Shown here: positions 3,342 to 41,341 of the stretch, in pieces
Position numbering within the stretch: the first letter of the stretch is position 1
Layout of the letters: every line of letters begins with the position of its first letter
Origin: Verrucomicrobium sp.
GTDB lineage: Bacteria; Verrucomicrobiota; Verrucomicrobiia; Methylacidiphilales; GAS474
NCBI GenBank assembly: GCA_028283855.1
Contig: JAPWJX010000003.1
Coordinates: 558,001-622,000, forward strand
DNA length: 64,000 bases
Direction of reading: 5' to 3'
Program-made: the position numbers and the translations under genes
Notes under the pieces: model-generated
Told to the model about the DNA's origin: nothing
The model's input: only the letters and a program-made list of their open reading frames with translations
The model's database searches: none

Positions 3342-4256
3342 ATGGAATTTGAAGAGATCCGGGGCCGCCTGAAGGGGTTAAGCGAATACGGCGACGATCT
3401 TGCCGGAGATCGGTGGCAGTGGCATCGCCACCCCAACCCGGACGGCTCCGTCGGCGGCTGGGTCCATAACCAATGCGTTCTCTATCCCGGCTCCGTCGTT
3501 GAGGCGGAGGCCATCGTCTTCGGCCGGGGCGTCTCTCTTTCCAAGGAGACGCGCGTCCGGGGCCGGTCCATCGTCGGCCCGGGGGTGGTGGCGGACGGGA
3601 AGGTCGACATCGTCGACTCCCACGTCTGCGGCTACAGCTGGGACCAGGACAAGCAGGGCCTCCCCCTCCACACCCAGCAGACGGGCTGGCCCCTGGACCA
3701 CACCCATTTGCGCGACTCGACCGTGACCGGGGCGAAGATCAACGCTTCCGGCATCGACCGCTCGGAGATCTCCGGCGCCACCCTCTTCGGCACCGGCGTC
3801 GACGCCAGCACCATCACCGGCCCAGACACCTGGGTGCGCGGCACGCTGGTGCGGGAGGGCTCCCACGTCGGCGGCGGCGCGGAGGCGGTCGCCTCCATTA
3901 TTGAGGACGGGTCCAGCCTGACCGGCCGCCACACCACCGCCCACCACTCCACCCTTACCGGCTCCTGCCAGGTGGCGGGCGGGGCGCGCGTCATCGATTG
4001 CGTGGTGGAGAAGGGCGCCCGGGTCGATCGTCCCAACCTTCAGCGGGTCAACGAGTTCATCGACAATGACCGCTATGCCGGTCCTCCCCGGCCCATCTCC
4101 TATGCGGAGATCCGGCTGGGTGCGGACCAGGTGGCGGGCCGCACCTTTAAGGAAGAATTGAAGCGGGGCCCCGTCCCCCTGGCCCGCTACGTCTACGGCG
4201 GGGAAAAGATGCCGGAAACGGTCATCCATCCTTGGAAGCTCGAACGCGCCAGCTAG
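3342..4256 (+). CDS. Beta-helix (hexapeptide-like) repeat protein of unknown function
   Basis: The 304-residue protein has no signal peptide. After an N-terminal region (MEFEEIRGRLKGLSEYG) and a WQWHRHPNPDGSVGGWV segment, it has many short V/I-x-x-G turns such as VFGRGVSLSKETRVRGRSIV and STITGPDTWVRGTLVREGS from about residue 50 to 240. This spacing suggests a left-handed or similar parallel beta-helix. No catalytic His of acyltransferases could be identified. The gene at 7885 has the same opening (DFQELRDRI, GGWVGPGARV, VGPGVV) and is a likely paralogue. The two genes flank the first ankyrin array, so they may belong to the same system. A structural or scaffold role is possible, but function is unknown. 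Confidence 0.6.
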   Translation: MEFEEIRGRLKGLSEYGDDLAGDRWQWHRHPNPDGSVGGWVHNQCVLYPGSVVEAEAIVFGRGVSLSKETRVRGRSIVGPGVVADGKVDIVDSHVCGYSWDQDKQGLPLHTQQTGWPLDHTHLRDSTVTGAKINASGIDRSEISGATLFGTGVDASTITGPDTWVRGTLVREGSHVGGGAEAVASIIEDGSSLTGRHTTAHHSTLTGSCQVAGGARVIDCVVEKGARVDRPNLQRVNEFIDNDRYAGPPRPISYAEIRLGADQVAGRTFKEELKRGPVPLARYVYGGEKMPETVIHPWKLERAS

Positions 4257-4306: not shown

Positions 4307-4326
4307 AAAATAGCCGAATGTACCCT
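4307..4326 (+). promoter_or_regulatory. Shared upstream element ahead of ankyrin array A
   Basis: AAAATAGCCGAATGTACCCT ends 4 bases before the first ankyrin gene. It is nearly the same as AAAATAGGCGAATTGTACCC ahead of the second array at 34788, and related to elements at 32634-32649 (minus) and 40622-40639. No Shine-Dalgarno sequence is visible here, so the element may be a core promoter (GAAAAT as -10) giving a very short leader, or an operator. Confidence 0.5.
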
Positions 4327-4330
4327 ATCT

Positions 4331-5098
4331 ATGACGTCGCGCACCCCCCTGCCCATGACCTGGGAAGTCGGCCAGCGGCTCGGCGAGATGCTGCGCACCG
4401 GGCAGGATCTCGGCGCCTTGGCGAGGCAGTGGGCCGTGACCTCCCGGCATTTTCTCCTGCCGGACAAGACCGGCTGGACCCCGCTGCACGAGGCGGCGCG
4501 TCTGGGACGCCTCCCGTCCATCGTCCAGGTGACGGGCCCGGCGCAGGATTGGTTCACCCTGGCCGACCTGCATGCGCGGGCGGGCAGCGACGCCACCCCC
4601 CTCCATTACGCCGCGGGGAAGGGGTGCCTGCCGGACGCCGCCGCCCTCCTGGGGCCGGAGGCGAAGGGCCTGACCCAGGCGCAGTTGAACGTCTTCACCT
4701 CGGACCTGGGGGCCACGCCCCTGCACGAGGCGGTCGCCACGGACGAGCTGGCCTCCTACGTGGCGGTTCTCCGTCTGGCGGGGGAAGGGCTGACCGCCGC
4801 GCCCTTTTTGATCCCGGAACGGGACAATCCCGCGCGGACACCCCTGAACGTGGCGGAAAAGTGGCAGCGCTTGGAGAAACTCTTCGCCCCGGAACATTGG
4901 GCGGGCCGCCTGACGGAAATGATGGAGCTGTGGCGGCACGTTTCCGAGGAGGGGAGGCGGCAGCTCGACCTCGAGCGCGTGCTGAACGAGACGGCGCTCC
5001 TCAGCCGCCGCCGGATCGAGCCCGCCGTGTTTCACGGGGCGGCGCGGGCGGCGCTGCCGGGCCTGCCGGAGATTCCCACCCGGGAGGTGCGGCGATGA
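4331..5098 (+). CDS. Four-repeat ankyrin protein A1
   Basis: A 255-residue cytoplasmic-looking protein, first of four coupled paralogues. An N-cap of about 48 residues ends in TSRHFLLPDKTGW. Four ankyrin repeats then start at about residues 50 (TPLHEAARLG), 89 (TPLHYAAGKG), 129 (TPLHEAVATD) and 170 (TPLNVAEKW). They are spaced 39-41 residues apart instead of the canonical 33, because an extra LTxxxFLxP-like segment is inserted. The C-terminal domain (WAGRLTEMMELWRHVSEEGR through RRRIEPAVFHGAARAALP) is shared by all family members. The start at 4331 is chosen over an upstream ATG at 4318 because only this frame carries the repeats. Ankyrin repeats usually bind proteins; the partner is unknown. 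Confidence 0.85.
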   Translation: MTSRTPLPMTWEVGQRLGEMLRTGQDLGALARQWAVTSRHFLLPDKTGWTPLHEAARLGRLPSIVQVTGPAQDWFTLADLHARAGSDATPLHYAAGKGCLPDAAALLGPEAKGLTQAQLNVFTSDLGATPLHEAVATDELASYVAVLRLAGEGLTAAPFLIPERDNPARTPLNVAEKWQRLEKLFAPEHWAGRLTEMMELWRHVSEEGRRQLDLERVLNETALLSRRRIEPAVFHGAARAALPGLPEIPTREVRR

Positions 5099-5871
5099 AC
5101 GCGCCGGACCAAACACCGTTGCCGCTGACCCCGCAGATCGGATCCCTGCTTTGCGACGCGATGCAGAAAGGGAAGGTGGAGGTGCTGAAGGATTTGGGGA
5201 GCCGGCTCACCTCCCGGCACTTTCTCATCCCGAGCCATGAGGAATGCACGCCGCTGCACAAGGCGGCGATCTACGGGCTGTTCCCTTGGATGGCCTCGAT
5301 CCTTTCTCCGGCGCAGGATTGGCTCACCCTTGCCGACTTTCACCGGGGGGCTTTCCAGGGAGGAACCACGCCCCTTCATCCCGCGGCGGGGCAGGGAAGG
5401 CTGGAGGCGGCCGCCGCGCTTTTGGGGCCGGAAAAGAAAGGGTTTTCGCAGGAAGAGCTGACCGTTTTCACGACGAATCTGCGCTACACCCCCCTTCATG
5501 CCGCCGCGCAGAGGGGCGAGTTCGCCTCCTACGTCGCGGTCCTGAAAATGGCAGGAGAAGGGCCTGCCGCGGCGCCCCTCTTGATGCCCGGCTCGAACAA
5601 AAAGACGCCTTTGCAACTCGCGGAAGAGTCGGGTTGCCTGCGCACGCTCTTCGTGCCGGCATTGTGGGCGGGCCGGACTGCGGAGCTGATGGAATTGACG
5701 CGGCACGTTTCGGAAGAAGGACGGCGGCAAGTCGATCTCGACCGCGTGTTGCATGAAACGCTGCTCATCGGCCGCCGGAGAATCGAGCCCGCCGCGTTCC
5801 GCGGCGCGGCCCGGGCGGCGCTCCCCCTCACGGGGGCGGAGAGCTGGAAGGCGGGAGAGCGCCGTCCATGA
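5095..5871 (+). CDS. Four-repeat ankyrin protein A2
   Basis: A 258-residue paralogue of A1, joined to it by an ATGA overlap, so translation is probably coupled. Repeats begin TPLHKAAIYG, TPLHPAAGQG, TPLHAAAQRG and TPLQLAEESG; the fourth is degenerate, as in every member. The N-cap contains LTSRHFLIPSHEE. The C-terminal domain contains WAGRTAELMELTRHVSEEGR and RRIEPAAFRGAARAALPL. Segments such as AAALLGPEKKGFSQEELTVF are typical of the array A subfamily and are replaced by VREAG-type segments in array B. No signal peptide or membrane helix is seen. Confidence 0.85.
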   Translation: MNAPDQTPLPLTPQIGSLLCDAMQKGKVEVLKDLGSRLTSRHFLIPSHEECTPLHKAAIYGLFPWMASILSPAQDWLTLADFHRGAFQGGTTPLHPAAGQGRLEAAAALLGPEKKGFSQEELTVFTTNLRYTPLHAAAQRGEFASYVAVLKMAGEGPAAAPLLMPGSNKKTPLQLAEESGCLRTLFVPALWAGRTAELMELTRHVSEEGRRQVDLDRVLHETLLIGRRRIEPAAFRGAARAALPLTGAESWKAGERRP

Positions 5872-6677
5872 AACGCTTTCACAAGGAACAAGGCCCGCTG
5901 CCATTGACGCTGGAAGTCGCCCACCAGCTCTCCGCCGCGATCAAGGAAGCGCGGCTGAGCCTTTTTATGCAGGCGCACGAAAGCCTGACGCCGGCCCACT
6001 TCCTTATCCCCAATCCCGACGTGGACGGGCCGGAAGATCGGGGATGGACTCCCTTGCACGACGCCGCCAAGGACCGGGAGGCGCTGCGCCTTTTGGCCGA
6101 CTCGCCTTTTTCTCCGCTCCGCGACGGCGCCCGGTTCTCCGCCGCAGATTTTCTGACGCAGACCGGCGCGTCGGCGAGGCCGATCCACGCCGCGGCGGTG
6201 CACGGAAACCTCGCAAGGGTCGCGGCCCTCCTTCCCGCCGGCCAGCAGGGCTTTACCATGGAGCAACTGCTGGCCACCAGCATCACCGGCAGAACTGTCC
6301 TTCACTACACGGGGAGCAGCCTGGGGGATTACGCCTCCTGCGCCGCCGTGCTGCGCGCGGTGGGCGAGGGCTTTTCCGCGGCGCCCTTTTTGCAGCCCTG
6401 CCGCATGTTCAAGCGCACGGCCCTTCATGAGGCGGAACAACATTGCCATTTGGAAAGCCTCTTCGCGCCGGAACTCTGGGCGGGGGGGGTTGCGGAAATG
6501 GCGGAGCTGGCGCGGCACGTTTCGGAAGAAGGGCGGCAGCAGTCCGATCTCGACCGGCTTCTGCACGCGGCGGCGCTGCTCAGCCGCCGCCGCGTCTCGC
6601 CGGAACTCTTCCGGGCGGCCGCGCGCGCCGAAATGCCCCTGCCGACGGCGCAGGGCAGGGAGCGGGAGGGCCGATGA
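5868..6677 (+). CDS. Four-repeat ankyrin protein A3
   Basis: A 269-residue paralogue overlapping A2 by ATGA. It is the most diverged copy in array A. The repeat starts are TPLHDAAKDR, RPIHAAAVHG, TVLHYTGSSL and TALHEAEQHC, and the N-cap (LTPAHFLIPNPDVDGPED) is longer. The C-terminal domain is intact (WAGGVAEMAELARHVSEEGR, then RRRVSPELFRAAARAEMPL). The weaker repeat consensus suggests relaxed selection or a different partner from A1, A2 and A4. The frame is open throughout with no sign of decay. Confidence 0.82.
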   Translation: MKRFHKEQGPLPLTLEVAHQLSAAIKEARLSLFMQAHESLTPAHFLIPNPDVDGPEDRGWTPLHDAAKDREALRLLADSPFSPLRDGARFSAADFLTQTGASARPIHAAAVHGNLARVAALLPAGQQGFTMEQLLATSITGRTVLHYTGSSLGDYASCAAVLRAVGEGFSAAPFLQPCRMFKRTALHEAEQHCHLESLFAPELWAGGVAEMAELARHVSEEGRQQSDLDRLLHAAALLSRRRVSPELFRAAARAEMPLPTAQGREREGR

Positions 6678-7450
6678 GCTGGTTTCGGAAAGAGCCGCTG
6701 TCCCTGACCCCGGAGGCGGGGAAAATGTTGGAAAACGCCTTCAACAAAGGCGAGCTGGCCCGCTTTGCGCGGCGCTATGCTTTGACCTCCCGGCACTTTC
6801 TCATCCCGGATGACAGCGAAGACCGCAAGGGGTGGACGCCGCTCCATGAGGCGGGGCTCACCGGGCATCTAGACCAGGTGGCCGCCGCGCTCCCCAAAGG
6901 GGACCACTTCACGATCGCCGATTTCCTTACCCCCAGCGGGGACGGCTGGACGCCGCTCCACGCCGTGTCGGGGCGCAGCGATTTGCTGCGGGTCGCCGCG
7001 ATGCTGGGGCCGCAGCGCCAGGGGCTTTCCCAGGCGGAACTCAACGTCACGGACACCAGCGGCTACACCCCGCTCCACACCGCGGCGGCCCAGGGCTATT
7101 TCGACACCTACGCCGCCGTGCTGCGGCTGGCGGGGGAAGGGCTGACCGCCGCGCCGTTCCTGGTGAAGGAGCGCAACGCGAACGTGTGGAGCCCCCTGCG
7201 CTTCGCGGAAACCAACGGCCACCTGAAGAAACTTTTCGTGCCGGAATTATGGGCGGGCCGAGTGGGGGAGATGGCCGGCCTGTGGCGGCACGTCTCGCCC
7301 GAGGGGCGGGAGAAAGTCGACATCGGCCCGATTTTCGACGAGGCGGTGCGGCTCAGCCCCCGCCGGATCGAGCCGGGCGTCTTCCGCGCGGCGCGGCGGG
7401 CGGCGGCGCCTTTTCCGGCGCGGGAAGAACGGGGCCGGGACCGGGAGTAG
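6674..7450 (+). CDS. Four-repeat ankyrin protein A4
   Basis: A 258-residue paralogue overlapping A3 by ATGA, last of the array. Repeats start at TPLHEAGLTG, TPLHAVSGRS, TPLHTAAAQG and SPLRFAETNG. The region TSRHFLIPDDSEDRKGW precedes the first repeat, and the C-terminal domain includes WAGRVGEMAGLWRHVSPEGR and RRIEPGVFRAARRAAAPF. The start at 6674 (MSWFRKEPLSL) is fixed by the four-base overlap and by alignment with the other N-caps. About 45 bases follow before the next gene, which has its own promoter. Confidence 0.83.
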   Translation: MSWFRKEPLSLTPEAGKMLENAFNKGELARFARRYALTSRHFLIPDDSEDRKGWTPLHEAGLTGHLDQVAAALPKGDHFTIADFLTPSGDGWTPLHAVSGRSDLLRVAAMLGPQRQGLSQAELNVTDTSGYTPLHTAAAQGYFDTYAAVLRLAGEGLTAAPFLVKERNANVWSPLRFAETNGHLKKLFVPELWAGRVGEMAGLWRHVSPEGREKVDIGPIFDEAVRLSPRRIEPGVFRAARRAAAPFPAREERGRDRE

Positions 7451-7459
7451 CCCCGCGCC

Positions 7460-7488
7460 TTGTCGGAACGGGCGATTGTCCCTAGAAT
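7460..7488 (+). promoter_or_regulatory. Sigma70-type promoter giving a near-leaderless transcript
   Basis: TTGTCG (7460-7465), a 17-base spacer and TAGAAT (7483-7488) form a good housekeeping promoter. Only seven bases (AGCCGCC) separate the -10 box from the ATG at 7496, so the transcript would start at or next to the start codon and would lack a ribosome binding site. Confidence 0.6.
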
Positions 7489-7495
7489 AGCCGCC

Positions 7496-7885
7496 ATGAT
7501 CAGCCAGGGCTATGTCGCCGTTTTTGCCAAGCCGCTCAACCGCGCGCTCATTTCCGAGTGCGTCGAATCGTGGCTCAACCGCTTCGAGTCCCTGGAGCAG
7601 GTGGCTCCACACACGGGCAGCGGCCCCGGATTCACCCTGGCGGTGAAGAGCCCGGCCGACGTGATGTGGGCGTCCGATGCGCTCCAGTTCCGCGTCCTTC
7701 AACAAGGGGAGTTCACCTGGGTCTATCTGACGCAGGACCGCCGCGCGATGGAGACCAGCGGCATGCCCGACCCCGATTTGACCCTCCCCCTCGACGTTCT
7801 GCTGGAGCTGCCCCACGTCACGGAGATCGTGGGCGACCACGACGAGCAGCGCCTCGACGAGCTGGAGGAGGAGGGGCTCCTCTAA
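7496..7885 (+). CDS. Small acidic protein of unknown function
   Basis: The 129-residue protein (MISQGYVAVFAKPLNRALI) is not recognised. It has an alpha/beta look, a very acidic C-terminal tail (DHDEQRLDELEEEGLL), no signal peptide and no membrane helix. A longer frame from 7460 exists, but the promoter at 7460-7488 argues for the ATG at 7496. Its TAA overlaps the ATG of the following beta-helix gene (TAATG), so the two are likely co-translated. Its position between ankyrin array A and the second beta-helix gene suggests a role in the same accessory system. The function is unknown. Confidence 0.6.
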   Translation: MISQGYVAVFAKPLNRALISECVESWLNRFESLEQVAPHTGSGPGFTLAVKSPADVMWASDALQFRVLQQGEFTWVYLTQDRRAMETSGMPDPDLTLPLDVLLELPHVTEIVGDHDEQRLDELEEEGLL

Positions 7886-8586
7886 TGGATTTCCAGGAGT
7901 TGCGGGACCGGATCATCGAGCGGACGGGCCACGACCAGGCGGGCGAGGAAGCCGTTTGGAAGCGGCACGTCAACGTCATCGACGGACAGGTGCTCCTGGG
8001 CGGCTGGGTGGGGCCCGGCGCGCGGGTCGACGCGGGCGCGTTCCTGGACGAAGAAGCGGCGGTTTTTGGCGAGGGGACGGCGATCGGCCCCGGCACCGCG
8101 CTGGGGGAAGGCGTCCTCGTCGGCCCCGGCGTGGTCACCACGGGTGACGTGCCGATCGAGGGCGGCGCCTATGTCTCCGGCCAGCATCCGCGCGGTGGGG
8201 TCCGGCTGATGGAGGTCCAGCATTCCCGTATTCAGGGGGGCAAGGTCCTGGCCACGGACGTCATCCATTCCCAGGTTTTAAGCGGCGCGTGGGTGGAGGA
8301 TTCCCGCCTGGTCGGCGCCACGGTCGCCGGTCCCGGCACGGTCCTTTTGCAGGCCCGCGTGGAGGGGGGCGAGGTTTCGGGCGGCGCGTGGCTCTCCCGC
8401 TGCCGCGTCGGCCAGGAGGGGCGGATCGACACGCCCGTGGTTCTCCAGGGGGAGACGGTCGAGGATGACCGTTACGCGCGGGAGCGGTTTGAGCCTGTCG
8501 CGGAGGACGAGGCCCCCTTCCGCCGGGCGGAGCAGGTCATGGCCGAGGCCGACCGCGGCCCCGCGCCGACCCGCTGGATCAATTAG
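7885..8586 (+). CDS. Beta-helix (hexapeptide-like) repeat protein, paralogue of the gene at 3342
   Basis: A 233-residue protein with very regular short turns, for example GGWVGPGARVDAGAFLDEEA, GEGTAIGPGTALGEGVLVGP and VAGPGTVLLQARVEGGEVSG. These predict a parallel beta-helix over about residues 35-195. The N-terminal MDFQELRDRIIERTG matches the start of the 3342 gene, and both end with a charged tail after a DDRYA motif, which is a further sign of common origin. It overlaps the upstream gene by one base (TAATG) and the convergent VWA gene by 8 bases. No enzyme motif was identified, and function is unknown. Confidence 0.62.
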   Translation: MDFQELRDRIIERTGHDQAGEEAVWKRHVNVIDGQVLLGGWVGPGARVDAGAFLDEEAAVFGEGTAIGPGTALGEGVLVGPGVVTTGDVPIEGGAYVSGQHPRGGVRLMEVQHSRIQGGKVLATDVIHSQVLSGAWVEDSRLVGATVAGPGTVLLQARVEGGEVSGGAWLSRCRVGQEGRIDTPVVLQGETVEDDRYARERFEPVAEDEAPFRRAEQVMAEADRGPAPTRWIN

Positions 8587-32633: not shown

Positions 32634-32649
32634 TACCAATTCGGCTATT
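32634..32649 (-). promoter_or_regulatory. Shared upstream element (minus strand)
   Basis: Read on the minus strand this is AATAGCCGAATTGGTA, matching the elements ahead of both ankyrin arrays (4307, 34788) and the unknown gene at 40640. It lies in the 59-base gap after the DciA-like gene and 21 bases before the 43-residue frame, so it probably starts a separate transcription unit. Confidence 0.45.
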
Positions 32650-34787: not shown

Positions 34788-34807
34788 AAAATAGGCGAAT
34801 TGTACCC
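34788..34807 (+). promoter_or_regulatory. Shared upstream element ahead of ankyrin array B
   Basis: AAAATAGGCGAATTGTACCC ends 3 bases before the array B start codon. It differs from the array A element by one substitution and one inserted T over the shared part. TAAAAT at 34787-34792 could be a -10 box, which would give a leader of about 12 bases without a ribosome binding site. Confidence 0.5.
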
Positions 34808-34810
34808 CTT

Positions 34811-35563
34811 ATGGGGTCCTCTGCCGCCAAACCGCGCCTGGAAACGGGCGGAGCGTGGCTGATTTCCCTGATTAACAAGGGGGAAGCCTTTGCCTGGGCG
34901 GAGCGGTACGGTTTTCCCAGGGCTGTCGTCCTCGAGCCGGACGAGCGGGGGTGCACGCCGCTCCACGTTGCGGCCACCCAGCACTGCCTCCCCGTTGTCG
35001 CCGCGGCGGTCCGGGAGGCCGGGGACATGCTGACGACCCAGGACTTTCTGACGCCGAACCGCCGGGGGTGGACGCCCCTGCACAATGCCGCCGCCGCCGA
35101 GGGGATGTGGGAGGTGGCGGCCATCTTGCGGGAAGCGGGGGAAACCCTTCTGGTCCGGCACCTCCTGACGCCCGACCTGGACGGGGACACGCCCCTCCAC
35201 GCGGCCGCTCACGCGAAGGGCCTGGCCTCTCTCCACGTCGCGGTGCGGAAGGCGGGGCAGCGGCTGGGGGTGCAGGATTGGCTGGCCGAAAACGAGGAGG
35301 GGATTTCCCCCATGGAAGCGGCGGCCTTCGCCGAAAATTTGCGCGAGGTTTTTTGGCCGGAGGAATGGCAAGGGCGGCTGGCGGAGATGGCGGAGCTGTG
35401 GCGCCACGTCCCGGAGAAATACCGGGAGCAGGTCGATTTCGAAAAGGCCGCCCATGAGGCGGCGCTTCTGAGCCGCCCGCGCTTGGAGGCGGCATCGTTC
35501 CGCGGCGCGGCGCGGCCGTCCATCCCGCTTCCGGAAAAGGAGGGCCATGGCCGCCGCTGGTAA
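34811..35563 (+). CDS. Four-repeat ankyrin protein B1
   Basis: The 250-residue protein is the first gene of the second ankyrin array. Repeats start TPLHVAATQH, TPLHNAAAAE, TPLHAAAHAK and the degenerate SPMEAAAFAE, again about 40 residues apart. The extra segment is of the B type: VREAGDMLTTQDFLTPNRRG and LREAGETLLVRHLLTPDLDG. The C-terminal domain (WQGRLAEMAELWRHVPEKYR, EQVDFEKAAHEAALLSRPRL, FRGAARPSIPLP) matches array A. No signal peptide is seen. It is followed by B2 with a 17-base overlap. Confidence 0.85.
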   Translation: MGSSAAKPRLETGGAWLISLINKGEAFAWAERYGFPRAVVLEPDERGCTPLHVAATQHCLPVVAAAVREAGDMLTTQDFLTPNRRGWTPLHNAAAAEGMWEVAAILREAGETLLVRHLLTPDLDGDTPLHAAAHAKGLASLHVAVRKAGQRLGVQDWLAENEEGISPMEAAAFAENLREVFWPEEWQGRLAEMAELWRHVPEKYREQVDFEKAAHEAALLSRPRLEAASFRGAARPSIPLPEKEGHGRRW

Positions 35564-36329
35564 GGAATTTCTTCCCGCGACGCAGCAGGTGCGGGAGTGG
35601 CTGGACGACGCGGTGCGCCGGGAGGACGCCTCGACCCAGTTCGCCCGGTTCACCCACTGCCGGATCCCGCTGGCCTGTTTCCTGGTCCCGGACAAGGACG
35701 GGATGACGCCGCTGCACGCGGCCGCCGCCTGCCATAATTTGGACAAGGTTGCCGCCAAGGTGCGGGAGGCGGGGGACCGGGTGACGCTCGACGCCCTCTT
35801 GCGGCCCAATGGGCGCGGGGAGACGGCCCTCCACGTGGCCGCCGCCGGCCGCGACAGCCTGGAGCAGGCGGTCGAGGTTCTTGAGGCGGCGGGGGAGACG
35901 CTCCGGAAGGAGCATCTCCTCGTCGAGGACGACAATGGAGTCACGCCGCTGCAGGCGGCCTCCCGGGAAGGGCGTTTGAACTTCCTGCTCGCCGTCGTGC
36001 GCCGGTCCGGAGAGCGGTTCGGCGCCGGGGATTGGCTGGCCAGGAATCGATCGGGCTGGTCTTCCCTGGACGCGGCGGGAACCCGCGGAATTCTGTTCCA
36101 GGTCTTCGATCCGCGGGATTGGCGCGGGCGGATGGGGGAGATGCTGGAGCTGTGGGGCCACGTCCCGGAGGGGGCCCGGAGCCAGGTCGATTTCGAGCGC
36201 GTCTCCCATGAGGTGGCGCTGGCCGGACGCCGCGCGCCCCGCGTGGAGCCGGAAAGTTTCAAGGCCGCCGCGCGGCCGGAAGTCGGCCCGCCGCCGGGGA
36301 AGGCCCCGGAGACGGAGCTCCGCCGCTAA
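35547..36329 (+). CDS. Four-repeat ankyrin protein B2
   Basis: The 260-residue paralogue starts inside the end of B1. An AAGGAGGGCC stretch immediately upstream is a strong ribosome binding site, unlike the array leader. Repeats begin TPLHAAAACH, TALHVAAAGR, TPLQAASREG and SSLDAAGTRG. The C-terminal domain reads WRGRMGEMLELWGHVPEGAR, then SQVDFERVSHEVAL and FKAAARPEVGPP. The array B repeat insert (VREAGDRVTLDALLRPNGRG) is clear. Confidence 0.85.
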   Translation: MAAAGKEFLPATQQVREWLDDAVRREDASTQFARFTHCRIPLACFLVPDKDGMTPLHAAAACHNLDKVAAKVREAGDRVTLDALLRPNGRGETALHVAAAGRDSLEQAVEVLEAAGETLRKEHLLVEDDNGVTPLQAASREGRLNFLLAVVRRSGERFGAGDWLARNRSGWSSLDAAGTRGILFQVFDPRDWRGRMGEMLELWGHVPEGARSQVDFERVSHEVALAGRRAPRVEPESFKAAARPEVGPPPGKAPETELRR

Positions 36330-36334
36330 CCTTT

Positions 36335-37111
36335 ATGGGCGATTCCGATCCCAAGCCGCTGATGCGGGCCTCCTGGGAATCCAGGGGCTGGCTGATCGAC
36401 GCGATGCGCCAGGGCACCTTCCCCGCCGTGGCCGCGCTCTACCGGATTCCCCTGGCCTGCTTCCTGGAGGGCGGCCAGGGCAACGCCACGCCGCTCCACA
36501 CGGCGGCGTTCACCGGCTACCTGCCGCAGGTCGCGGCCTGCGTCGGCGAGGTGGGGGAGAGCCTTTCCCTGGCCGATTTGTCCCGCCCCACGCTGGGCGG
36601 TTGGACGCCGCTGCACGAGGCCGCCCACGGCGGCCGCTTCCGGGACGTGATCCGCGTCTTGCGGGAGGCGGGGGAAGAGCCCGGCCTCGACGCGCTTTTG
36701 GTGCCGGACGGTTTTTCCGCCCGCACGCCCCTGCACGTGGCGGCGCAGCGCCGCCAGATCGCCGCGCTGGCCGCGGCGGTGCGGGAGGCCGGATGGGAGC
36801 TGCGGCCCCGGCACTGGCTGGCCGCCAACCGGGACGGGAAGACGGCCCTCGACGAGGCCGCCCTCCACGGAAATTTGGACCAGGTGTTCGAGCCCTCCCT
36901 CTGGACGCGCCGCGTGGGGGAGATGGGGAAACTCTGGAGCTACGTGCGGGAGGAGAGCCGGGGCGGGGTCGATTTTGAGCGCCTCTCCCACGAGGCGGCG
37001 CTGGCCAGCCGCGCGCCGCGCGTGCCCGCGGCGGCCTTCCGCGGCGCGGCCCGGCCGGAGCTGTCCGGGCCGGGGCGGGCGGAAAAGGGCGGGCCGCTCC
37101 GGGAAAATTAA
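36335..37111 (+). CDS. Four-repeat ankyrin protein B3
   Basis: The 258-residue paralogue starts 5 bases after B2 and overlaps the convergent CAP gene by 4 bases. Repeats begin TPLHTAAFTG, TPLHEAAHGG, TPLHVAAQRR and TALDEAALHG. Inserts include VGEVGESLSLADLSRPTLGG and LREAGEEPGLDALLVPDGFS. The C-terminal domain contains RRVGEMGKLWSYVREESRGG, VDFERLSHEAALASR and FRGAARPELSGP. The basic architecture is the same as in the other six. Confidence 0.85.
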   Translation: MGDSDPKPLMRASWESRGWLIDAMRQGTFPAVAALYRIPLACFLEGGQGNATPLHTAAFTGYLPQVAACVGEVGESLSLADLSRPTLGGWTPLHEAAHGGRFRDVIRVLREAGEEPGLDALLVPDGFSARTPLHVAAQRRQIAALAAAVREAGWELRPRHWLAANRDGKTALDEAALHGNLDQVFEPSLWTRRVGEMGKLWSYVREESRGGVDFERLSHEAALASRAPRVPAAAFRGAARPELSGPGRAEKGGPLREN

Positions 37112-37659: not shown

Positions 37660-38541
37660 TCAGTGGCTGAGGACCGGCTGGAGGCCGGGCGCGGCGGCGA
37701 GGTCGGGCCGGGCGTGGGCCGCTCCGGCGGTGGAGAAGAAGCTCATCGCCTCGTCCCTCCAGCGGGAGACTTGGTTGTGGGCGGAAGCCAGGAGGCCGAT
37801 GCCCCGGTCGGTCAAAGTCGGGCTTTGGCCGGAGGGAGTCTGGCTGACGGGGGAGACGCCGTGGAGCGCGGCGTCCTTCGCCTTCGCGGCGGCGCCGGCC
37901 ACGCTGTGCCAGGTGTCGACGGCGGCGGCCGCGGTGACCTTGCCCTTGGCCACGTCGCCCCAGGTCGCCGCCTGGCCGTTCTTGCGCATCGTTTCCAGCT
38001 GGGCGGCGGTCGCCTCCGCGCCGATGCCCGCGGCGGTGACGCCGATGGCGACCGGGGTGGCGACGCCCGCCGTGCCCAGCGCGGCGACGTCGGCGGCCAG
38101 GCCCGCGCCGCCGCCCGCCAGGCGCAGCACGCCCTGCATGGCAAAGCTCTTGGCGTCGCGCCCGCCGCGTGCGGCGGCGATGCCCGCCTTGCCCAGGTCC
38201 CACAGTCCTTCCCCGACCATGATGCCGGAGCAGACGATGGGGACTTTCTTCAAAAGGGCGGTGCCCGCGACGCGGGCGCCGGCCACGGCGGCGGTGCGGC
38301 CCGCTTCCTCCCCCGCCACGCGGCTGACGGCGCGGACGCCCGCCTCGCTGGTGGCGATGCGGGCGGCGCTGCTCATCTTCTGCGTGCCGCTGCGGACGGT
38401 GCTGGCCGTCCGGCTGCCGGCGTGGATGAGGCGGCTGGCCTGGTCCAGTTCCTTGGCCCGCTCCAGGCGCTGGCGCAGGGCGACGGCCTGGGCCGCGTCC
38501 TGGACCACTTCCTTCCCGGAAAGCTGGGCGGAGGAACTCAT
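37660..38541 (-). CDS. Ala/Gly-rich protein with hydrophobic core, unknown function
   Basis: The 293-residue protein has a charged helical N terminus (VALRQRLERAKELDQASRLI) followed by long Ala/Gly/Val stretches (ARVAGTALLKKVPIVCSGIM near 88-107; AALGTAGVATPVAIGVTAAG near 153-172). Such glycine-zipper-like segments are seen in membrane-inserting effectors and translocators. There is no signal peptide. The Pro/Ser-rich part near 230 is followed by an SFFSTAGAAHARP tail. It lies between ankyrin array B and the small peptide/mutL region. A secreted pore-like or membrane-active protein is one idea, without direct support. Confidence 0.5.
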   Translation of the reverse strand: MSSSAQLSGKEVVQDAAQAVALRQRLERAKELDQASRLIHAGSRTASTVRSGTQKMSSAARIATSEAGVRAVSRVAGEEAGRTAAVAGARVAGTALLKKVPIVCSGIMVGEGLWDLGKAGIAAARGGRDAKSFAMQGVLRLAGGGAGLAADVAALGTAGVATPVAIGVTAAGIGAEATAAQLETMRKNGQAATWGDVAKGKVTAAAAVDTWHSVAGAAAKAKDAALHGVSPVSQTPSGQSPTLTDRGIGLLASAHNQVSRWRDEAMSFFSTAGAAHARPDLAAAPGLQPVLSH

Positions 38542-38780: not shown

Positions 38781-40622
38781 ATGCCGCGCATCCAGCTTCT
38801 TTCCGAAAACGTCGCCAACCAGATCGCGGCGGGCGAGGTGATCGAGCGGCCCGCGTCCGTCCTGAAGGAGCTTTTGGAAAACTCCCTGGACGCGGGGGCG
38901 CGGCAGGTTTCCGTCCGCACGCGCGACGGCGGCCGGACGCTGCTCGAAATCACCGACGACGGCTGCGGCATGGGCCGGGACGACGCGCTCCTCTGCCTGG
39001 AGCGGCACGCCACCAGCAAGCTGAAGGAAACGGACGACCTCCGCCGCCTGGCCTCCTACGGCTTCCGCGGGGAGGCGCTGCCCTCCATCGCCTCCGTCTC
39101 CCGCTTCCTCCTTCAGACCTGCGAGCCCGGCGCCCTGGCCGGGACGGAGGTCTCCGTGCAGGGGGGCAAGCTGGCCTCCGTCCGGGAGGCGGGCCTGGCT
39201 CCCGGCACGCGGATCGAGGTCCGCTCCCTTTTCTACAACCTGCCCGCGCGGCGGAAGTTCCTCCGGGGCGACCGGACGGAGCTGGCTCACCTTCAGCACG
39301 TCCTCCTTTTGGCGGGATTGGCCCGGCCCGACGTGGGCTTCCAGATCGTCCATGACGACGCGGCCCCCCTGCGCTGGCCGGCCGGGCAGGACCTGGAGCG
39401 GCGGATCGCCACCCTCTTCGGCGAGGGGTGGCGGAAGGAGCTGGTCCCTGTCGAGGCTCAGGCCGAGGGGCTGCGCCTGCGCGGCTTCGTCGGCCAGCCG
39501 GGCGTCAGCCGCGGCACGCGGCAGGAGCAGTTCCTCTTCGTCAACCACCGGCCGGTGGAGAGCCGGACCCTCCACTTCGCCCTTCAGGAGGGCTACCACA
39601 ACTCCCTCATGCGGGGCCGCTATCCGGTCACCGTCCTTTTCCTCGACCTCGATCCCGCCGGGGTTGACGTGAACATCCACCCGGCCAAGCGGGAAGTCCG
39701 CTTCCACGACGACGCCCAGATCCGTTTCTTCGTGAAGCGCGCGGTGCAGGAGGCCCTCCAGGGCTACGCCGCCGCGCCGGTTTCCGTCCCCCTCTCCGTG
39801 CGGGAGGAGCCCCCCGCCTACGCCGCGCTGACGGAAGTGCCGCCCGCCCGGCAGGAGACCTTCCTCAGCCCGGAGATCGCGCGGACGCCGGAGCGGCCCG
39901 CGCCCGCCTTCGTTCCCGAGGCGCGCCCGGCGGAGCCGGTCCCCGAGCATGTTTCCGCCCCCGCGCCCAGCGCGCTGCGGAGCGCCGCGCCTCTCCTGCC
40001 GCCGGAGGAAGCCGCCGCCAACCCCCTGGGCTTGCGCATCCTGGGGATCGTCGCCCGTCTCTATATCGTCGCGGAAAGCCCGGAGGGCCTGGTCCTCATC
40101 GACCAGCACGCCGCGCACGAGCGGGTCCTCTTCGAGCAGATGCTGGAGCGGATGCGCGCCGGGGAGGTTCCCTCCCAGCGGCTCCTGTTGCCCGCCACCG
40201 TCGAGCTGCCGCCGCGCGAGGCCGAGTTCCTTTCCCGCCAGCTGGAGCCCCTGGCCGCGGTGGGCGTTTCCTTGAGCGCCTTCGGCGGGAACGGCGCGGG
40301 CGGCCAGGCCTTCCTGGTCGACGCCCTGCCGCCGATGGTCGCCCAGAAGAACGTGCCGGAGCTGATCCGCGACCTGGTCGCCGACCTCCAGCAGGAGGGC
40401 GGCCAGACGCGGAAGGACCGCCACCTTTCGGAAGAAGTCGTGGCCAAGACCGTCTGCCGCCGCGCCGTGAAGGCCAACGACCGCCTCTCCCTGCCGGAGG
40501 CCGAGCGGCTCGTCACCGACCTCCTGGCCTGCGCCCTGCCCTACACCTGCCCGCACGGCCGCCCCACCATGATCCAGATCACCAAGGGGGAGCTGGAAAA
40601 GAAGTTCGGGCGGGTCGTCTGA
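38781..40622 (+). CDS. mutL: DNA mismatch repair protein MutL
   Basis: The 613-residue protein has the GHKL ATPase motifs NQIAAGEVIERPASVLKELL and NSLDAGA at residues 16-42, DDGCGM near 59 and YGFRGEAL near 94. The C-terminal endonuclease motif DQHAAHERVLFE near residue 439 matches DQHAx2Ex4E, together with the late CPHGRP motif. This means it is the nicking type of MutL found in bacteria without MutH. It couples MutS mismatch recognition to strand removal. A proline-rich linker of about 120 residues separates the two halves. The gene has its own promoter region. Confidence 0.96.
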   Translation: MPRIQLLSENVANQIAAGEVIERPASVLKELLENSLDAGARQVSVRTRDGGRTLLEITDDGCGMGRDDALLCLERHATSKLKETDDLRRLASYGFRGEALPSIASVSRFLLQTCEPGALAGTEVSVQGGKLASVREAGLAPGTRIEVRSLFYNLPARRKFLRGDRTELAHLQHVLLLAGLARPDVGFQIVHDDAAPLRWPAGQDLERRIATLFGEGWRKELVPVEAQAEGLRLRGFVGQPGVSRGTRQEQFLFVNHRPVESRTLHFALQEGYHNSLMRGRYPVTVLFLDLDPAGVDVNIHPAKREVRFHDDAQIRFFVKRAVQEALQGYAAAPVSVPLSVREEPPAYAALTEVPPARQETFLSPEIARTPERPAPAFVPEARPAEPVPEHVSAPAPSALRSAAPLLPPEEAAANPLGLRILGIVARLYIVAESPEGLVLIDQHAAHERVLFEQMLERMRAGEVPSQRLLLPATVELPPREAEFLSRQLEPLAAVGVSLSAFGGNGAGGQAFLVDALPPMVAQKNVPELIRDLVADLQQEGGQTRKDRHLSEEVVAKTVCRRAVKANDRLSLPEAERLVTDLLACALPYTCPHGRPTMIQITKGELEKKFGRVV

Positions 40623-40639
40623 TAGCCGAATTACGTACC
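40622..40639 (+). promoter_or_regulatory. Shared upstream element ahead of the 40640 gene pair
   Basis: ATAGCCGAATTACGTACC lies directly against the ATG at 40640 and overlaps the mutL stop codon. It matches the array A and B elements in the ATAGSCGAATT core and the GTACC end. No Shine-Dalgarno sequence is visible. Confidence 0.45.
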
Positions 40640-41341
40640 ATGAGCCTCGACCTGAAAAAGTCGTTCGACGAGACCACCGGCTTCATCCACGACTCCAAGG
40701 TTCACGACGTCGACCTGGCCGCCCTGGGGCGCAACCTCGACGTCCCCGCGCTGGCCGCCGCCAAGCCGGAGGAAATCTCCGTCCCGCCCTACTTCGGCTA
40801 CCGGCAGGGCTACTACGCCGCCGCACTGGCCGCCCTGGCCTACATGAAGGGCTCCCTTTCCCAGGCGGACGGGGCCTCCCGCGCCGAGCTGGAAACCCTT
40901 TCCAAGGCGGGGGCCAACGTCGCCGCCTCCTTCTTCCGCTTCGCGAAGGAGCCGGTCTACCTCCACCCGGAGCCGGGAGAGGCGCGCCAGACCGCGCCGG
41001 TCGTCACCGCCGCCCTCTTTGAAACGATGCGCTCTGTGCTGACCGCCAACATCGGGGACGAGTTGAAGGTGCCCTGTTCCGTCCGCACGGGCGAAACCCG
41101 CTACCTGGAAAACGAGGCCGCCGTGCGCGCCACCCCCTGGTTCCGCGCGTGTCACGCGGCCTTGGCCGAGTTCGAGGCGGCGGGCCGCTCCCGGGAAGGG
41201 CTGGCGGAAAAGCTCCAGCCGTCGAAGGTCGTCGCGGCGCTCCAGGAAGTCGCCGCCGGATTCCGTCCCGCCCGCCCCGTCCCCGCTCCCGGCACGGCGG
41301 AAGCGGTCGACGCCGCCGTCAGCGTCGGCGGGGTGCTTTAA
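40640..41341 (+). CDS. Unknown protein, first of a pair
   Basis: The 233-residue protein (MSLDLKKSFDETTGFIHDSK) is not recognised. The composition suggests a mostly helical cytoplasmic protein (GYYAAALAALAYMKGSLSQA, AELETLSKAGANVAASFFRF). There is no signal peptide or membrane helix. The last 40 residues are rich in Ala/Pro. It follows the shared upstream element and precedes another unknown gene by 10 bases. It may belong to the same regulon as the ankyrin arrays. Confidence 0.6.
   Translation: MSLDLKKSFDETTGFIHDSKVHDVDLAALGRNLDVPALAAAKPEEISVPPYFGYRQGYYAAALAALAYMKGSLSQADGASRAELETLSKAGANVAASFFRFAKEPVYLHPEPGEARQTAPVVTAALFETMRSVLTANIGDELKVPCSVRTGETRYLENEAAVRATPWFRACHAALAEFEAAGRSREGLAEKLQPSKVVAALQEVAAGFRPARPVPAPGTAEAVDAAVSVGGVL

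Follow-up and report, generated by a model that had tools for sequence, protein, structure and literature searches.

In a window of 64,000 nucleotides from Verrucomicrobium sp. (the whole stretch of DNA analysed; assembly GCA_028283855.1, contig JAPWJX010000003.1, positions 558,001 to 622,000), four consecutive ankyrin genes at positions 4331–7450, here called array A, form one of four tandem arrays of an ankyrin family found in this species only, which probably provides a range of different binders built on a single frame. Comparison of the family members showed purifying selection on the common frame and substitution of the concave, ligand-facing positions from one paralogue to the next.

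The initial annotation of this stretch had described four consecutive ankyrin genes of the same plan, and this was borne out by their coordinates, Pfam ankyrin matches in all four proteins and the repeat layout. A1 (4331–5098, 255 residues), A2 (5095–5871, 258 residues), A3 (5868–6677, 269 residues) and A4 (6674–7450, 258 residues), all on the forward strand, consist of an N-cap, three ankyrin repeats, a terminal half-repeat and a C-terminal helical domain; one repeat of A3 is disrupted. The repeat unit has 39 residues rather than the usual 33, the N-cap resembles the end of a repeat, and the terminal half-repeat, earlier read as a degenerate fourth repeat, continues into the C-terminal domain. 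The proposed ATGA overlaps were also confirmed, as a 4-nucleotide overlap at each of the A1/A2, A2/A3 and A3/A4 junctions. Of 137 co-directional neighbour pairs in the same genome (crude gene calls), 12 could have such an overlap, so three consecutive joins are unlikely to have arisen by chance. Shine-Dalgarno-like sequences of their own precede A2, A3 and A4, and GGGAGGTG lies 5′ of the A2 ATG.

A search of the source genome (2.56 Mb in nine contigs, 95.6% complete, about a quarter of it read, as stretches) with a family profile identified 14 members in four arrays: A (four genes), B (three), C (four) and D (three). Array B is a second array within the window (34811–37111) that the initial annotation had missed. 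It comprises, on the forward strand, B1 (34811–35563, 250 residues), B2 (35547–36329, 260 residues), which overlaps B1 by 17 nucleotides, and B3 (36335–37111, 258 residues), which begins 5 nucleotides after B2 and abuts a convergent CAP-domain gene. Array C is on another contig (locus L009) and array D further along the contig of the window (locus L010). The C-terminal region that A1–A4 had been said to share was alignable throughout the 14 proteins. At curated cut-offs, 13 of the 14 matched PF12796, and the two-repeat protein D1 matched PF00023 instead. The arrays hold family members only, in tandem on one strand and uninterrupted by toxin genes, with intergenic distances of −17 to +14 nucleotides.

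Neither the number of repeats nor the ATGA join is fixed in the family, since both differ among the arrays. Counted as full repeats plus the terminal half, all members of A and B are 3+1, those of C are 4+1, 3+1, 4+1 and 3+1, and those of D are 1+1, 3+1 and 4+1 (ten members with 3+1, three with 4+1 and one with 1+1). The junctions, in nucleotides, are −4, −4 and −4 in A, −17 and +5 in B, −4, +2 and +4 in C, and +14 and +14 in D; ATGA joins are thus the rule in array A only, and B to D are mostly without them. The count of exactly four repeats therefore holds in array A, as three full repeats and a half, and fails for the family, in which one to four full repeats occur; a fixed repeat number is thus not supported as the mark of a single assembly. 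In a tree, the four A genes grouped together (100/100), as did the three B genes (97/92), and the C and D genes were intermixed, with no conserved gene order and no one-to-one relation between arrays. Genes of A and of B are most similar to others within their array, the pattern expected from local tandem duplication and not from copying of an ordered set. Varied repeat numbers without conserved order, which the initial annotation had named as evidence against its proposal of a multi-subunit assembly or paired binders, are largely what we observed within this genome. What survives of that proposal is a set of same-plan, binder-like proteins; the fixed assembly does not.

We then compared selection on different faces of the repeat, using as the binding face the family positions that we take to be equivalent to the randomised positions 2, 3, 5, 13 and 14 of designed ankyrin repeat proteins (DARPins). 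Between repeats of the same index within one array, identity was 3–24% at the binding face and 44–57% at other positions. The proportion of nonsynonymous differences (pN, 0.68) exceeded that of synonymous differences (pS, 0.52) at the binding face, and 19 of 20,000 randomly drawn sets of columns gave a difference as large; in the rest of the repeat pN was well below pS. This excess was found in arrays A, B and C, whose exposed convex positions showed none. As a control, orthologues of a single-copy ankyrin gene from other genomes of the class gave pN/pS values of 0.23/0.50 for the binding face and 0.23/0.48 for the remaining positions. Read most directly, these substitution patterns suggest that ligand specificity has diversified while the frame was conserved.

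An AlphaFold2 model of A4, made with the 14-member alignment, had the ankyrin fold with a mean predicted local distance difference test score (pLDDT) of 89.3. Foldseek returned ankyrins and DARPins as its closest structures (best E 8e-7), and VIA-align superposed 151 residues on the ankyrin fold (Z 12.1, root-mean-square deviation 2.9). In every one of the 91 pairs, the C-terminal domain was better conserved than the repeats (mean identity 0.50 versus 0.35). It matched neither Pfam nor any PDB sequence and, when modelled alone (pLDDT 81.5), gave no Foldseek match in the PDB, so that these sequence and structure searches connect it with no known fold. This domain is private to the family, and we count it as new.

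The family was confined to its own genome when we searched two congeners, 59 relatives from the order and 387 genomes of the phylum. With the full family model at E 1e-10, neither congener and none of 57 further relatives matched, and among 62 genomes of the order, including the source, this model matched just two others, both generic ankyrins at 28–32 bits. A model of the C-terminal domain, run on 388 phylum genomes including the source, gave one 21-bit match elsewhere, in a 51-residue frame with a stop; within the congeners it gave weak matches only, in G001 (E 0.26–0.70). Peptide pattern scans of 84,980 species plus viral contigs, which detect close relatives only, found no member and yielded at most ordinary 33-residue ankyrins from betaproteobacteria that lack the C-terminal domain. 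A plasmid search of the same reach matched no family member. The initial annotation had proposed a search of related genomes for the same operon, and the searches of congeners, order and phylum found none. In congener G002, the flank of array B (mutL and the neighbouring CAP-protein gene) and that of array D (genes for GmhA, an LptF-like permease and a Bcp-like peroxiredoxin) are both present without ankyrin genes. The simplest reading is a lineage-specific gain at these two sites; the alternative is loss in the congeners. We found no description of such ankyrin arrays in this lineage in the literature.

A comparison of the regions ahead of the start codons revealed that AATAGCCGAATTA precedes A1, B1, D1, D2 and D3. 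The near-invariant motif, ATAGCCGAATTA, lies 17–38 nucleotides 5′ of the ATG of these and other genes. In the window it occurs as AATAGCCGAATGT at 4309–4321 (forward strand, 21 nucleotides before the A1 ATG, counted from the A of ATAG) and as AATAGGCGAATTG at 34790–34802 (forward, 20 nucleotides before the B1 ATG). Two further copies precede a gene without known function at 40640–41341 (motif at 40621–40633, forward) and a short reading frame, likewise without known function (motif at 32637–32649, reverse), and others were found at loci L009, L010, L011, L100, L101, L103, L104 and L125–L142. The core, ATAGCCGAAT, is present in 25 exact copies in 668 kb of the genome, against 0.3 expected, or at 26 sites once the one-letter variant of B1 is counted; none of 200 10-mers shuffled from its letters occurred more than three times, and 504 kb of the congeners (400 kb of G002 and 104 kb of G001) contained no copy. 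All 26 sites are followed by an ATG in the same orientation within that range of 17–38 nucleotides, mostly at 18–21. From nine sites in a 400-kb sample, chosen irrespective of ankyrin or beta-helix genes, we estimate about 60 sites genome-wide.

The genes that carry the motif include the ankyrin genes, paralogues of a beta-helix protein, a vWA-like and an AAA-like gene beside array C, and others of no known function. Ten further motif genes were compared with Pfam: eight had no match, one was PcfJ-like and one ChaN/TraB-like. By crude start sites, Shine-Dalgarno-like tetramers preceded 1 of 29 motif genes versus 51 of 275 other calls. Judged by this shared upstream signal, the ankyrin arrays seem to be part of a wider set of lineage-specific genes. 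We tentatively suggest that this set comprises roughly 60 or more genes, mostly of unknown function, in which AATAGCCGAATTA replaces the Shine-Dalgarno sequence and may mark a dedicated system of transcription or translation initiation that turns on a private conflict or symbiosis programme, with the ankyrins as its variable recognition arm. Such a system could be an alternative sigma factor or a phage-type polymerase that produces leaderless messages. Two other readings of the motif were considered and rejected. No viral contig contained more than a single copy, a frequency that resembles chance occurrence and does not suggest a viral or mobile element. The core GCCGAA is similar to a sigma-28 promoter, but no fixed −35 element was apparent by eye and the flagellar operon that was read has no copy. 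We found the motif described nowhere in the literature, and the shared signal and the diversified ankyrin face are also counted as new. Separately, a 714-residue PcfJ-like protein is encoded at L126 (3324–5465, forward), preceded by a motif copy with one mismatch.

A repertoire of binders would work as follows. Each copy would bind its own ligand, a step suggested by the replacement of concave positions between paralogues. The proteins, which have no obvious signal peptide, would be cytoplasmic and co-expressed with the other genes that bear the motif; their constant C-terminal domain would dock a common partner or merely cap the fold. With the variable face as recognition surface, they may neutralise or sequester changing proteins, foreign or self, in the manner of polyimmunity proteins; by analogy, a polyimmunity-like role is the least unlikely one and leads by a little. 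Several observations weigh against a diversified repertoire. Array D alone (14 codons) showed pN equal to pS, with no excess, and the first gene of array C lacks the upstream motif. A control made with orthologues suits paralogues imperfectly, divergence is high (synonymous divergence, dS, of about 1, near saturation), the pairs are not independent and the Nei–Gojobori (NG86) estimates are rough, and relaxed constraint together with saturation could mimic part of the pN excess. Variable binding faces also occur in any ankyrin family. Finally, no toxin was recognised beside any array in the roughly one quarter of the genome that was read.

In its strict form, polyimmunity would mean that each protein confers immunity to a polymorphic toxin delivered by competitors or kin, an explanation that we regard as possible, at rather less than even chances. 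It would account for distant paralogues arranged in tandem and in one orientation with tiny gaps, for arrays free of toxin genes and absent from the congeners, and for a diversified interface, and both such arrays of tandem paralogues and an ankyrin class of immunity protein (Imm-ank) have been described (Zhang et al. 2012, PMC3482391). However, we recognised no toxin, RHS-like or recombinase gene beside the four arrays (no toxin search was made elsewhere), and extended polyimmunity loci have been reported in proteobacteria, bacteroidetes, firmicutes and actinobacteria only, with usually one locus per organism (PMC3482391). The absence of a recombinase refers to the crude gene calls beside arrays A to D, as no recombinase family search was run. 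A recombinase near a polyimmunity locus is frequent and not obligatory.

Somewhat more doubtful is the idea that the proteins serve an AAA/vWA remodelling machine as adaptors, with substrates selected by the ankyrin face and the C-terminal domain docking on the AAA-like or vWA-like protein. It arises because array C sits between two genes of that kind, both with the motif of A1, B1 and D1–D3, and a constant C-terminal domain would suit docking. The AAA-like gene (L009 5380–7890, reverse strand), 24 nucleotides downstream of C4, encodes a Walker-A-like GPPGMGKS, and the vWA-like gene (L009 11436–14069, reverse strand) a DGSGS motif of the metal ion-dependent adhesion site (MIDAS) type and an HEIAH motif. 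Searches of Pfam, NCBIfam and the PDB gave no confident match for either protein, and both labels are therefore motif readings; the vWA-like protein had no relative in 61 genomes of the order. The pair, moreover, flanks one array of four.

Symbionts and pathogens commonly use ankyrin proteins as effectors, and the family could consist of secreted effectors whose targets would be a eukaryotic host or other cells. That the genes are lineage-specific and marked together with other genes of unknown function would fit, but we consider this unlikely: obvious signal peptides are lacking, and the single FHIPEP (PF00771) gene lies in a flagellar operon, so that by this marker (other secretion systems were not tested) there is no separate type III system. 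Both congeners likewise have one copy. Least likely, and very improbable, is the fixed-ratio hetero-oligomer of A1–A4 first proposed from the ATGA coupling and common plan of array A, because the arrays have different numbers of genes and of repeats and different junctions, without orthology by position, the most changeable faces are those that would need to fit partners, and D1, D2 and D3 each have an upstream motif of their own. A phage or defence origin was also rejected, as PHROGs and PADLOC gave repeat-level matches only; in PADLOC these were weak, with no whole-protein defence match for arrays A to C.

Array A is flanked by members of another species-specific paralogous family. A left-handed beta-helix (hexapeptide-like) protein is encoded at 3342–4256 (forward strand), ending 74 nucleotides before A1, and a second paralogue at 7885–8586 (forward). 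Between A4 and the latter lies a gene with no assigned function (7460–7885, forward), which probably starts near 7496. A beta-helix query matched 13 places in the genome and none in either congener; family loci are the window, L100–L106 and L133, and several members have the upstream motif. Beyond array B, an Ala/Gly-rich protein with hydrophobic stretches and no Pfam or PHROG match is encoded between the CAP-domain gene and mutL (37660–38541, reverse strand).

If a diversified repertoire is the correct reading, this bacterium keeps a home-made set of ankyrin binders, their ligand faces made different through duplication and selection, and one short DNA signal ties that set to a larger private group of genes. 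The motif would then be a direct handle that names other members of the programme and lets their functions be tested jointly.

Among known systems, polyimmunity loci are similar in their co-directional tandem arrays of distant paralogues with small gaps, free of toxins, in the use of ankyrins and in the diversification of an interface. They differ from the arrays described here, which occupy four loci in one genome, have a private C-terminal domain and a shared upstream motif, and have no recognised toxin or recombinase. Because no toxin was recognised nearby and neutralisation of toxins by these proteins would be hypothetical, we do not class the ankyrin locus as a polyimmunity member. Legionella AnkY/LegA9 shares ankyrin repeats with the family, with a weak NCBIfam match (15 bits against a cut-off of 600) at repeat positions only, whereas here no effector domain matched and no secretion signal was identified. 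A single-copy ankyrin of about 350 residues, which comes from one family of the class (f12, loci L045–L063) and is conserved in many genera, has a highly regular LTxENL...TPLHxAAxxGHLDQ repeat. It is of the same repeat sub-type (LTxENLLxxNxxGxTPLHxAAxxGHLDQ) as the array proteins, but its repeats have 33 residues and are more numerous, it has no C-terminal domain, and its face is conserved between orthologues. Ankyrins in general (PF12796, PF00023) and DARPins share with the family the fold, the TPLH repeat core and the binding-face positions, and differ from it in a repeat of 33 rather than 39 residues and in lacking the extra C-terminal helical domain; a repertoire of this kind would be a natural parallel to DARPin libraries.

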